The translations under genes were made by a program, and so were the position numbers. This document shows, piece by piece, positions 3,021 through 13,526 of a DNA stretch of 32,474 nt; positions within the stretch are counted from its first letter, which is position 1, and each line of letters opens with the position of its first letter. Under the pieces are notes generated by a model. That model was not told where the DNA came from, made no database searches, and worked only from the letters and a program-made list of their open reading frames with translations. The stretch is from Bacilli bacterium (GTDB lineage: Bacteria > Bacillota_I > Bacilli_A > RF39 > UBA660). The stretch covers positions 1 through 32,474 of the forward strand of contig JAFVEF010000032.1 of assembly GCA_017478105.1 (NCBI GenBank), written 5' to 3'.

Positions 3021-4034
3021 ATGGAAAAAAAGAATACTATTTTTAATTTTATTTATCCATATGATAATGATTTATTAAAAGATCTTAGTGGAGAAGATTT
3101 ACAAATATTATTAGTATTACTAGACGAGTATAAACTAAAATTAAGAAAAGATACTAATATTCCTAAAGATGTAACATTTGGAATAGAAATAGAAGTAGAG
3201 AATCTAAAAGATAGTAAATCTCAAGAAATATATGATAATCTTCCAGATGAAGAATGGAAAGTTACAAATGATTTATCTTTAAGAAAAGGTATTGAAGTAG
3301 TATCTCCAATACTAATAGATGAAAAAAAGACTTGGAAAGAAATATCTAAAATATGTAAATATTTAAAAACAATATCAGAGATATCTTCTAATACAGCTGG
3401 ACATATTCATGTAGGTGCTCAAATAATGGAAGATGATACTAATAAGTGGTTGAATTTATTAAAACTATGGTCAGTATATGAGAATATAATCTTTCGATTT
3501 AGTAATGGGGAATATATAAACAGTAGAATGTCACAACAAAGATTTGCACCTGCTGTCAAAGAACAACTTGAAAAAGAATATGATATTTTAAAAAAATGTG
3601 GTTATGATGTAACAAATACACTTAGAATATTAAAACATGATAGAAACCAAGCAATTAATTTTGAAAATATTTATCTAGATAGATATAATGAATTCTATAA
3701 AAATAATACAATAGAAATAAGATGCCCGAATGGTACCTTAAATCCTATTATCTGGCAGAATAATATAAATTTCTTTACAAAATTTTTATTATATTGTAAT
3801 GATAATGCCTTTGATTATGACACTGTATTAAAAAGAGAAGAAAAAAATAATAAAAATAAAGTAAATTATACAAAGTATGAAACAATTTATCTAGAACAAG
3901 CTTTAGAATTAGCTGATTTATTATTTAATAATAATAAAGATAAAGTATATTTTTTAAGACAATATCTTAAATCTTTTGAAATAGATAAAAGTTATAATAG
4001 TGCTTTAAAAAAAGCAAAAGTATTTACAAAATAA
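3021..4034 (+). CDS. Amidoligase-family enzyme, paralog 1
   Basis: Putative COOH-NH2 ligase of the Amidoligase_2 (glutamine-synthetase-like) family, 337 aa, predicted to use ATP to join a carboxylate to an amine. Family landmarks visible in order: FGIEIEVE (53-60), giving clustered Glu for metal/ATP binding; a DLSLRKGIEVVSPIL segment (84-98); AGHIHVGA (126-133), the paired-His motif; ENIIFRF (154-160); and IEIRCPNGTLNP (231-242), the C-terminal Glu/Arg motif. No transmembrane helix or signal peptide, so it is cytoplasmic. The ATG is preceded by AGAGGAAG. It sits 2 nt after a small membrane-protein gene and 26 nt before its own paralog. Family assignment is firm. Substrate is unknown; members have been proposed to modify peptides, proteins or cell-wall-like metabolites. 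Confidence 0.85.
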   Translation: MEKKNTIFNFIYPYDNDLLKDLSGEDLQILLVLLDEYKLKLRKDTNIPKDVTFGIEIEVENLKDSKSQEIYDNLPDEEWKVTNDLSLRKGIEVVSPILIDEKKTWKEISKICKYLKTISEISSNTAGHIHVGAQIMEDDTNKWLNLLKLWSVYENIIFRFSNGEYINSRMSQQRFAPAVKEQLEKEYDILKKCGYDVTNTLRILKHDRNQAINFENIYLDRYNEFYKNNTIEIRCPNGTLNPIIWQNNINFFTKFLLYCNDNAFDYDTVLKREEKNNKNKVNYTKYETIYLEQALELADLLFNNNKDKVYFLRQYLKSFEIDKSYNSALKKAKVFTK

Positions 4035-4060
4035 AAAAAAGAATAATAGGGGGAATTCCT

Positions 4061-5071
4061 ATGAACAAATTATTTTCTTTCATCAATAAAGATGATAATA
4101 ATAAACTATCTAAAATGAAAGAAGAAGATTTAAATGAACTTTTTAATCTTTTACAAAAGTATAAACTTGAGTATCGTGATACTCTAAATTTAGATAGTAA
4201 TATTAGTTTTGGAACAGAAATAGAATTTGAATTTGCGAATAAAAGCGAAGTATTAGAAAGAATGGTATTAAATTATGCTGATAGTGGATGGTATGTTAAA
4301 CCAGATAAATCCCTTTATTTTGGTTTAGAAATAACATCTCCAATATTAACAGATAATCAAAATACTTGGATACAATTAAAAGATATGTGTACACTAGCAT
4401 CTAATAATGGAGTAGCATCTATTCATTCAGGAGCTCATGTTCATGTAGATAATAGAGTTTTAAAATATAAAAAAGAAAATGTAATAAAATTATTAAAAAT
4501 ATTTTCTGCTTATGAAAATGTAATATTTAGATTTGGTAATGGTGAATATATTAATTGTCGTCAAAAGATAAATCAGTATGCTGAACCAATTGCTCAAGAA
4601 ATATACTTTACTCCAGCTTTTGAATCAAGTAATTTAACCCAAGAACAAATAGATGGAATAATATACCAATTAAAAAGAGATCGCTTTAAATCTTTAAATA
4701 TTAATAATACAGTATTTGAAAAAGAAAAACTAAATGCACCTAAAAATACAGTAGAATTTCGTTCACCTAATGGAACTCTTAATCCAATTATTTGGCAAAA
4801 CAACATAAACTTTATAACTAAACTAGCAAAATATGCAACAAATAATAATTATGATGAAGATACCATTAGAAAAAGAATGTTAATCAATAGTGAAATAATG
4901 TCTAATATTTATGATTATAACATCATGGATATAGATGGTGCCTTAGAACTTGTAGATTTAATATTTGATAATAATTTAGATAAATTATATTTCTTAAGAC
5001 AATATACAAAAGATTTACGACAATCAAGAAGTAAAAATCTTTATTTAAAATCAAAATCATTCACAAAATAA
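4061..5071 (+). CDS. Amidoligase-family enzyme, paralog 2
   Basis: Second amidoligase-family protein, 336 aa, plainly homologous to the preceding gene along its whole length. Shared landmarks are FGTEIEFE (50-57), SLYFGLEITSPIL (84-96), GAHVHVD (124-130), ENVIFRFGNGEYINCR and EFRSPNGTLNPIIWQNNIN. The end, YFLRQYTK...KSKSFTK, also matches YFLRQYLK...KAKVFTK of paralog 1. All putative metal and substrate residues are kept in both copies, so neither looks degenerate. The pair may form a heterodimer or act on different substrates (inference). RBS is GGGGG at 4049-4053. No terminator lies between the two genes, so they form one operon. Confidence 0.85.
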   Translation: MNKLFSFINKDDNNKLSKMKEEDLNELFNLLQKYKLEYRDTLNLDSNISFGTEIEFEFANKSEVLERMVLNYADSGWYVKPDKSLYFGLEITSPILTDNQNTWIQLKDMCTLASNNGVASIHSGAHVHVDNRVLKYKKENVIKLLKIFSAYENVIFRFGNGEYINCRQKINQYAEPIAQEIYFTPAFESSNLTQEQIDGIIYQLKRDRFKSLNINNTVFEKEKLNAPKNTVEFRSPNGTLNPIIWQNNINFITKLAKYATNNNYDEDTIRKRMLINSEIMSNIYDYNIMDIDGALELVDLIFDNNLDKLYFLRQYTKDLRQSRSKNLYLKSKSFTK

Positions 5072-8692: not shown

Positions 8693-8729
8693 CAAATTAG
8701 AGATTAACTATATATAGGGGGAAATGTCA

Positions 8730-9560
8730 ATGAATAATAAAATAGAACTAATTTCTAATCTTTTTGAAGGACACGAAATTCGCTGTCTTTGGGATTCAAA
8801 TAAAGAAGATTATTGGATAAGCGTAGTTGATGTTATAGAAGTGTTAACTGGAACCAACTATCAAAAATCTAGAAACTACTGGAAAGTATTAAAAAGCAGA
8901 TTATCAAAAGAAGGAAGCCAGTTGGTTACAATTTGTAACCAACTAAAAATGAAATCATCTGATGGAAAATATTATCTGCAAGATACTTTGAATACAGATG
9001 GAATATTTAGGTTGATAGAATCAATACCATCAAAAAAAGCTGAGCCATTTAAAATATGGCTTGCTAATCTTGGCAAAGAAAGAGTAGATGAAGTGTTTGA
9101 TCCATCATTGGGAATTGATAAGATGATAGATTTTTATCTAAATAAAGGCTATTCACTAGAATGGATAAAAGAAAGAATAGATGCAATTATAAATAGAAAA
9201 AAGCTCACACAAACATGGAAGAGTCATGGTATAAGTGATAGCAGTGAATATGCAATATTAACTAATGAAATATATAAGACTTGGTCTGGAATGACTGCTA
9301 AAGAATATAAAGAATATAAAAATATTAGAAAAGAAAGTCTAAGAGACAATATGTCTGATTTAGAAATACTTCTTACTAATATTGGTGAAGTGGCAACCAG
9401 GGAATTAACAAATACTCATCATCCAATAGGTTTAGAACAAAATAAACTAATATCAGAAGTTGGTGGAGGAATTGCTAAAAACACCAAAAAAGATTTAGAA
9501 GAAAAACTGGGAAAAACAGTTATAAACAGTAATAATAAAATGATAGATAATTATAAATAG
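8730..9560 (+). CDS. BRO-N / DinD-like protein between parE and parC
   Basis: Protein of 276 aa with a BRO-N type domain (about 1-115; WISVVDVIEVLTG, EGSQLVTICNQLK, IESIPSKKAEPFKIWLA), as in phage antirepressors. The C-terminal half (about 165-276; EYAILTNEIYKTWSGMTAKEYK, TRELTN, EVGGGIAKNTKKDLEEKLGKT) resembles E. coli DNA-damage-inducible protein D, whose product inhibits RecA filament assembly. The start is ATG 8730, 8 nt after GGGGG; ATG 8724 is too close to it. A candidate LexA box overlaps the promoter. It is inserted 71 nt after parE and 14 nt before parC, so parC is probably co-transcribed with it. A perfect 11-bp inverted repeat lies in its coding sequence (8920-8944). Family firm; DinD function is inference. 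Confidence 0.8.
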   Translation: MNNKIELISNLFEGHEIRCLWDSNKEDYWISVVDVIEVLTGTNYQKSRNYWKVLKSRLSKEGSQLVTICNQLKMKSSDGKYYLQDTLNTDGIFRLIESIPSKKAEPFKIWLANLGKERVDEVFDPSLGIDKMIDFYLNKGYSLEWIKERIDAIINRKKLTQTWKSHGISDSSEYAILTNEIYKTWSGMTAKEYKEYKNIRKESLRDNMSDLEILLTNIGEVATRELTNTHHPIGLEQNKLISEVGGGIAKNTKKDLEEKLGKTVINSNNKMIDNYK

Positions 9561-12211: not shown

Positions 12212-13486
12212 ATGAGACAAAGATACCTATATGCTGTTTTATTCGTTATTTTATTAACGCTTTCATTAGGTTATGCCCTCCTAACTACTAATTTAAACAT
12301 AGTAGGAACAACAGTAGTAAAAGATAATAAATGGGATATTTATTTTGATAATGTTCAAGTAAAGTCTGGCAGTGTTACGGCATCTACTCCAGTAATAGAT
12401 ACTGCTAAAACTACAGTATCTTATAGTGTAACTTTGAATTTACCAGGAGATTATTTTGAATTTACAGTTGATGCAGTTAATGATGGAACAATAGATGGAA
12501 TGATATCAACAATATCAAATAAACTAAATGGAACAGAAATCACAACACTTCCAAATTACTTAGAATATAGTGTTTCTTATTCTGATGGAATAGCTATTCA
12601 AAATAATCATCTATTAGAAGCAGGAAAGACTGAAACCTACAAAGTAAGAGTAGGCTATAAAAAAGATATAAGTGCAACAGATTTACCAAGTACAGAACAA
12701 ACACTAAATTTATCATTTTCAGTAACTTATGTTCAAGCAGATGATAATGCCGTTAAGCCAGATCATCCGGAATCATTTGAAACAGATTCATGGAATACAA
12801 TAGTTAACGCAGTAAAAACAGGAAATACTAGTGTTTATAATGTCGGAGATACTAAGACAGTAGATATGGGAACACTTGGAACTCATACATTAAGAATAGC
12901 TAATAAATCAACACCAACAGAGTGTTCTACAACAGGATTTAGTCAAACTGCTTGTGGTTTTGTCTTAGAATTCGCCGATATAATCACAACTCATAATATG
13001 AATTCTACAAGTACAAATGTAGGAAGTTGGCCAGCAAGTGAAATGAGAACATATGTAAATACTGATATTTATAATGCCCTACCAACAGAATTAAAAAATG
13101 GAATAATAGATACAATAGTAGTATCCGGACATGGAGATACTTCTGGAGAGACAAACTTCACATCAACTGATAAACTATATTTACTATCAACACATGAAGT
13201 ATGGGAAGATGTAGATGGAAATACAAGTGGTGGAATAGACTGTTATGATACAGCCTATAATAATACAAGACAATTAGATTATTACGCAGGTTTAAATGTC
13301 ACAACATCAAGTTACTCAGGAGCAATTAAACAACTAAATGGTACAAACTCTTATTGGTGGCTGCGCTCGGCTAGTTCTTATACTATTAGTACGGGCAATT
13401 TTAACGATGTGAACAGCTATGGCTGGTGGGATAGCGCCAGTGCTTATTATGCTGATGGCGTCTCACCGGCTTTTAGAATTGGATAA
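12212..13486 (+). CDS. Anchored surface protein with lectin-like variable domain
   Basis: A 424-aa exported protein. Residues 5-24 form a hydrophobic signal/anchor, followed by GYALLTTNLNIVGTT. Residues about 35-175 are a Thr/Ser-rich beta-sandwich resembling TasA/camelysin-type modules (KWDIYFDNVQV, LPGDYFEFTVDAVNDGTIDG, LEAGKTETYKVRVGY). After a short linker, residues about 190-424 look like a DUF6273 / C-type-lectin-like domain (GTHTLRIAN, WPASEMRTYVNTDIYNALP, KLYLLSTHEVW, YWWLRSA, GVSPAFRIG). The final ~120 bp have a sharply different composition and NNY codons, as in a DGR variable repeat. It has its own promoter and terminator, so it is monocistronic. Likely role: cell-surface ligand-binding protein whose binding face may be hypermutated. 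No reverse transcriptase is nearby; lectin fold and DGR targeting are inference from motifs. Confidence 0.8.
   Translation: MRQRYLYAVLFVILLTLSLGYALLTTNLNIVGTTVVKDNKWDIYFDNVQVKSGSVTASTPVIDTAKTTVSYSVTLNLPGDYFEFTVDAVNDGTIDGMISTISNKLNGTEITTLPNYLEYSVSYSDGIAIQNNHLLEAGKTETYKVRVGYKKDISATDLPSTEQTLNLSFSVTYVQADDNAVKPDHPESFETDSWNTIVNAVKTGNTSVYNVGDTKTVDMGTLGTHTLRIANKSTPTECSTTGFSQTACGFVLEFADIITTHNMNSTSTNVGSWPASEMRTYVNTDIYNALPTELKNGIIDTIVVSGHGDTSGETNFTSTDKLYLLSTHEVWEDVDGNTSGGIDCYDTAYNNTRQLDYYAGLNVTTSSYSGAIKQLNGTNSYWWLRSASSYTISTGNFNDVNSYGWWDSASAYYADGVSPAFRIG
13355..13483 (+). other. Candidate DGR variable repeat (VR)
   Basis: Covers residues 382-424 of the surface protein. By hand count bases 13355-13470 are about 51% G+C (59/116), against about 30% in flanking DNA. 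Codons CTG CGC TCG and repeated GGC/AGC/AAC occur here although neighbouring genes use TTA, AGA and TCA. Of the 30 codons for residues 388-417, 26 end in C or T (NNY), compared with 14 of the 30 preceding residue 382. AAY template codons mutated at A by a DGR would give this pattern. The conserved frame YWWLRSA...GVSPAFR matches known DGR variable proteins. No template repeat or reverse transcriptase was found in the window. Confidence 0.55.
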
Positions 13487-13500
13487 TAGTGATTTGTTAT

Positions 13501-13526
13501 AGACACATTTGATATGTGTCTTTTTT
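13501..13526 (+). terminator. Terminator / hairpin downstream of VR
   Basis: Eight-bp perfect stem AGACACAT (13501-13508) / ATGTGTCT (13514-13521), 5-nt loop TTGAT, then six T. It acts as a plausible terminator. DGR targets often need a hairpin just after the variable repeat, so a second role is possible. Confidence 0.75.

Follow-up and report, generated by a model that had tools for sequence, protein, structure and literature searches.

Positions 13355-13480, at the 3' end of a 424-aa gene in the window (the whole 32,474-nucleotide stretch of DNA analysed here), are very probably the variable repeat (VR) of a remote target of a diversity-generating retroelement (DGR), a bacterial system that randomises particular codons; the template would contain some 18 AAY codons and one ACT codon, and the cassette is missing from the assembly. 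The window is contig C50 of genome G000, which comprises 61 contigs and 1.28 Mb and is 86% complete, and genome-wide statements for G000 derive from searches of its assembled contigs. The initial annotation had read the gene end as a DGR VR, and this reading is supported: the VR and its relatives differ on the inferred template-A columns, and two DGRs comprising template repeat (TR), accessory gene and reverse transcriptase (RT) lie in the same genome.

The target gene (Table 1) is chromosomal and located amid housekeeping genes, without an RT nearby. Its product is predicted to be secreted or membrane-anchored and to carry a DUF6273 ligand-binding domain, and it may bind variable ligands at the surface. 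The VR covers residues 382-423, at the 3' end of the gene portion encoding DUF6273, whose C-type-lectin-like fold is taken from the literature (PMC10743442); the frame WWLRSA...GVSPAFR, noted earlier as the one known from lectin-fold variable proteins, is present. An AlphaFold2 model of the 424-aa protein (mean pLDDT 78) contains a helix at residues 2-27 and strands at residues 43-175. Predicted structures of viral DUF6273 proteins match this full-length model, with target TM values reaching 0.68, and a fold search of the PDB with it returned no significant match. A separate model of the C-terminal part was of lower quality (pLDDT 60) and was set aside. Elsewhere in the window, two neighbouring paralogous genes (3021-5071) appear amidoligase-like by eye, and an ORF at 8724-9560, lying between two topoisomerase-type genes, resembles a phage BRO/KilA-type protein.

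Table 1. Features of the target gene and its VR in the window, and places of the hairpin element found 3' of related VRs
Feature	Position	Strand	Description
Target gene, 424 aa	12212..13486	+	ORF; predicted N-terminal hydrophobic helix, beta-sandwich domain and C-terminal DUF6273 domain
DUF6273 domain, residues 257-423	12980..13480	+	Pfam, E=2e-17; C-type-lectin-like according to PMC10743442
VR 5' anchor	13355..13372	+	TGGTGGCTGCGCTCGGCT; hardly varies among 19 VRs from the genus
VR mutable core	13373..13456	+	NNY codons, residues 388-415; 6 bp longer than in most relatives
VR 3' end	13457..13480	+	GGCGTCTCACCGGCTTTTAGAATT (GVSPAFRI); conserved across relatives
Terminator-like hairpin with T-run	13501..13526	+	3' of the stop codon; read from the sequence
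Hairpin element, G000 contig C3	L021:5715-5912		
Hairpin element	L144:1095-1310		
Hairpin element	L103:5920-6105		
Hairpin element	G030:C18:23412		

The gene end is set apart by both base composition and codon structure. The G+C content of 13355-13483 is 48.1%, against 31.6% in the remainder of the gene and 26.2% in the window, and only nine of the 32,346 possible 129-bp segments reach this value, all of them at the same site, the next separate place having 41%. The initial annotation had put the figure at about 51%, which was too high, although the segment is indeed the most G+C-rich 129 bp of the window. A recount of NNY codons reproduced the earlier figures exactly (26/30 at residues 388-417 vs 14/30 in the preceding 30). 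Among 9,152 thirty-codon stretches in open frames of at least 150 codons in the window, 26 or more NNY codons occur twice, both times at 13355-13483. The conserved 3' end GGCGTCTCACCGGCTTTTAGAATT sits where an initiation-of-mutagenic-homing site would be expected, and this position suggests a role in homing.

Related VRs recur in the genome. With one mismatch allowed, GGYTGCGCTCGGC is found at six sites in G000 (the window, C44, C55, C9 and two on C3), each within the VR of such a DUF6273 gene. In addition, C55 carries two further DUF6273 genes with more divergent VR-like ends, and the rewritten family in G000 numbers about seven genes, the window gene included. For column comparison, 19 equal-length, gap-free VRs were used, five from G000 and 14 from congeners, with the window VR excluded. 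Across 19 variable codons, mean entropy at positions 1, 2 and 3 is 1.54, 1.55 and 0.61 bits; A makes up 51%, 50% and 1% of the bases, respectively, with all four bases occurring at positions 1 and 2, and 97% of the bases at position 3 are T or C. One additional codon (NCT) varies almost exclusively at its first base, as a template ACT predicts. Upstream control codons of the same genes have entropies of 0.57, 0.52 and 0.78, position 3 being the most variable, which is the ordinary pattern. The template, deduced from the repeats rather than read, would contain one ACT and about 18 AAY codons. The composition contrast alone would be compatible with a history free of any retroelement, in which a G+C-rich segment was imported or positive selection acted on a lectin loop. 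However, selection on the protein does not keep position 3 at T or C while positions 1 and 2 take four bases, and a paralog on C37 encodes the same frame (WWLRSA...GVSPAFRIG) in host-like codons (TTA AGA AGT GCA), indicating that the DNA rather than the peptide is special; we consider such a history very improbable and largely refuted by the codon-position pattern.

When the window VR, with its 6-bp insertion removed by hand, is compared with the majority sequence of its relatives, mismatches occur in 23 of the 40 columns predicted to be template A and in 9 of the remaining 76 (P=4e-7, a guide rather than an exact probability because the 19 VRs are mutually related). Given the nine non-A differences and six extra base pairs, either the window VR's own template differed or the VR has drifted. 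The expectation that mismatches would fall on template adenines is therefore borne out against the inferred template, whereas the nearest TRs that could be read, both from congeners, fit the window VR poorly: that of G023 differs at 17/42 A and 24/87 non-A positions, and that of G012 at 21/42 A and 32/91 non-A positions.

Searches for a near-copy and a DGR RT, proposed with the initial annotation, returned near-copies that are themselves VRs, together with two DGR RTs of other types. By contrast, the 86%-complete assembly yielded neither the cognate TR, sought by pattern and with the inferred template (only VRs matched), nor an RT of matching type. The exact TR pattern had one match in GTDB genome contigs, a congener's VR, and none in IMG/VR. 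Neither the RT nor the target was found in IMG/VR, and the target was not found in plasmids; in phages the target had four distant matches with 31-33% identity. An Rfam search of the window and the C3 locus gave no hits.

One of the two other DGRs, on C25, consists of a target with VR, a TR, a small gene that lies where Avd would be expected but had no family match, and an RT running off the contig; the RT gene continues at the start of C32, where a 46-residue stretch is identical to the C25 RT end. The RT bears the motifs IGAMTSQ and YMDD, the locus classes as a DGR cassette, and the best PDB match of the RT is chain 8ub7, which we take to be the BPP-1 RT. Differences between the C25 TR and its targets are biased towards A; one of these targets lies on a separate contig, C7, and differs from the TR at 16/44 A and 5/86 non-A positions, indicating that this DGR acts on remote genes. 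The other, on C21, comprises a target, a TR and an Avd-like gene that matches bAvd and DivGenRetAVD, both below cut-off, and its TR and VR differ at 17/39 A and 1/97 non-A positions. The C21 RT gene (L023:4560-5686, minus strand) has a frameshift between its halves, and the A pattern of TR and VR at this locus is near-perfect. Either of these DGRs might be considered the writer of the window VR, and C25 has both an RT and a remote target; however, their TRs, tried as templates, fail to align over the window VR, from which they depart in frame and at numerous non-A positions, making this origin very improbable.

A better candidate for the writer comes from the genus. The nearest intact relative is a cassette in the congener G012, where Avd, TR and RT lie in a row; its TR has a similar frame (WLRPANSNNNNN...GLAP) and reads WLRPANSNNNNNFRNVNYGNLNNNNANNTNNGLAP. 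DGR RTs usually carry xGxxxSQ, and the G012 RT has GVEIAQ at the place of this motif, a departure that counts against the reading. Another congener, G023, holds a VR and TR of the window-VR frame that differ at 25/45 A and 4/87 non-A positions, and no RT was found in the stretch around them or by family search. In G000 itself, downstream of a paralog VR on C3 lie, in order, a hairpin element, a 31-codon Avd stub and other genes. The stub shares 71% identity over 31 aa with the G012 Avd (E=8e-8; E=2.7e-7 in the genome search), and a search for Avd across the genus yielded just three loci, namely this stub, the intact gene of G012 and a truncated second copy in G012 (G012:C2:97385-97660) that runs into a target-like GGFPAFRVG tail, as in a VR gene. 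On contig C128 of G020, a VR and the hairpin element precede the opening bases of this Avd, after which the sequence is unrelated, as judged by eye below the search threshold. An Avd-TR-RT cassette of the type seen in G012 and in the C3 stub would have written the window VR. The earlier proposal that the composition of the gene end comes from a template elsewhere is supported as history rather than for the present, since the cognate template is absent from the assembly, the C25 and C21 TRs do not fit, and the remnant of matching type is the C3 Avd stub.

The hairpin element, containing YCCGARYGNAAGYGAGGAC and lying 3' of family VRs, has five exact matches in the 39 genomes and occurs at VR loci in G000, G020, G023 and G030, whereas the reversed YCCGARYGNAAGYGAGGAC control has no matches in these genomes. 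Separately, G061 carries fifteen RT copies of equal score and length, which are probably group II introns.

Error-prone reverse transcripts of the template would have replaced the 3' end of the window gene and about six paralogs, randomising the A positions and leaving the remaining positions unchanged, and the template/RT cassette would subsequently have been lost from at least one locus. With such a loss, the window VR may now be frozen, its diversification having perhaps ceased in the assembled strain. If the cassette was deleted from the lineage, to which we give nearly an even chance, the targets retain whichever variants were written last and evolve in the ordinary way, consistent with the unrelated sequence that follows the C3 Avd stub, with a stop codon just ahead of the VR in the C9 target, and with congeners bearing partial cassettes. 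However, an incomplete assembly and true loss predict the same absence, and five G000 VRs of the 19-VR set have kept the NNY pattern. Ongoing diversification, with TR and RT in the missing ~14% of the genome and the C3 stub an old second copy, is distinctly possible, if short of probable. The assembly is only 86% complete, G012 combines an intact cassette with a truncated copy, and family VRs lie within 700 bp of a contig end more often than chance predicts (8/28 vs 2.0 expected, P about 3e-4; indicative only, the limit having been chosen after viewing the list), which points to heterogeneity or repeats breaking the assemblies. Against continued activity, an RT of the G012 type was found in just one of the 39 genomes of the genus, in which each species is represented by one genome, whereas such VRs occur in about a dozen; a VR-carrying congener that is 96% complete yielded no RT, and several genomes contain stubs or partial cassettes. 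Congeners with such VRs are so often without this RT that its loss, or a location outside the binned chromosome, has to be taken seriously. A broader scenario, in which a mobile or extrachromosomal DGR cassette is repeatedly gained and lost across this genus of gut Bacilli, rewriting chromosomal DUF6273 VRs in trans and leaving stubs, is conceivable, though we hold it to be unlikely.

Surveys that seek a VR beside an RT miss remote or orphan VRs, as one states for its own method (PMC8144416). The window VR was recognised without its template, through composition and codon-position statistics across paralogs. Within the genus, one DGR type can be seen intact, as VR and TR with no RT, or only as a stub, which makes the fate of targets after loss of their engine testable.

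Collectively, VRs in remote targets, targets that outlive the DGR core and DUF6273 carriers are already known, and the window VR adds to these. The closest precedent is the Treponema denticola DGR with its TvpA family, in which targets are remote and are left behind after loss of the core (PMC4891356). As in T. denticola, where target genes persist in isolates without TR and RT, one TR would serve several remote targets and the target genes would outlast TR and RT. However, the T. denticola targets are lipoproteins, whereas those described here are DUF6273 proteins with a hydrophobic N-terminal helix from other bacteria; moreover, Avd stubs mark the sites of loss here, and three distinct DGR/TR types, one of them inferred, are tied to a single small genome. 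DUF6273 also carries the VR in DGR targets of Faecalibacterium prophages and of tentaclin phages (PMC11792537, PMC10743442), in the Faecalibacterium prophages likewise at the C-terminus of the domain, but those are proteins of DGR-bearing phages, while the window gene is chromosomal and has no RT nearby. By analogy with the BPP-1 DGR of the Bordetella phage (bRT-Avd), the system would operate through TR, VR, Avd and RT with mutagenesis at A, but BPP-1 acts on just one target, which is linked and encodes a tail protein of the phage.
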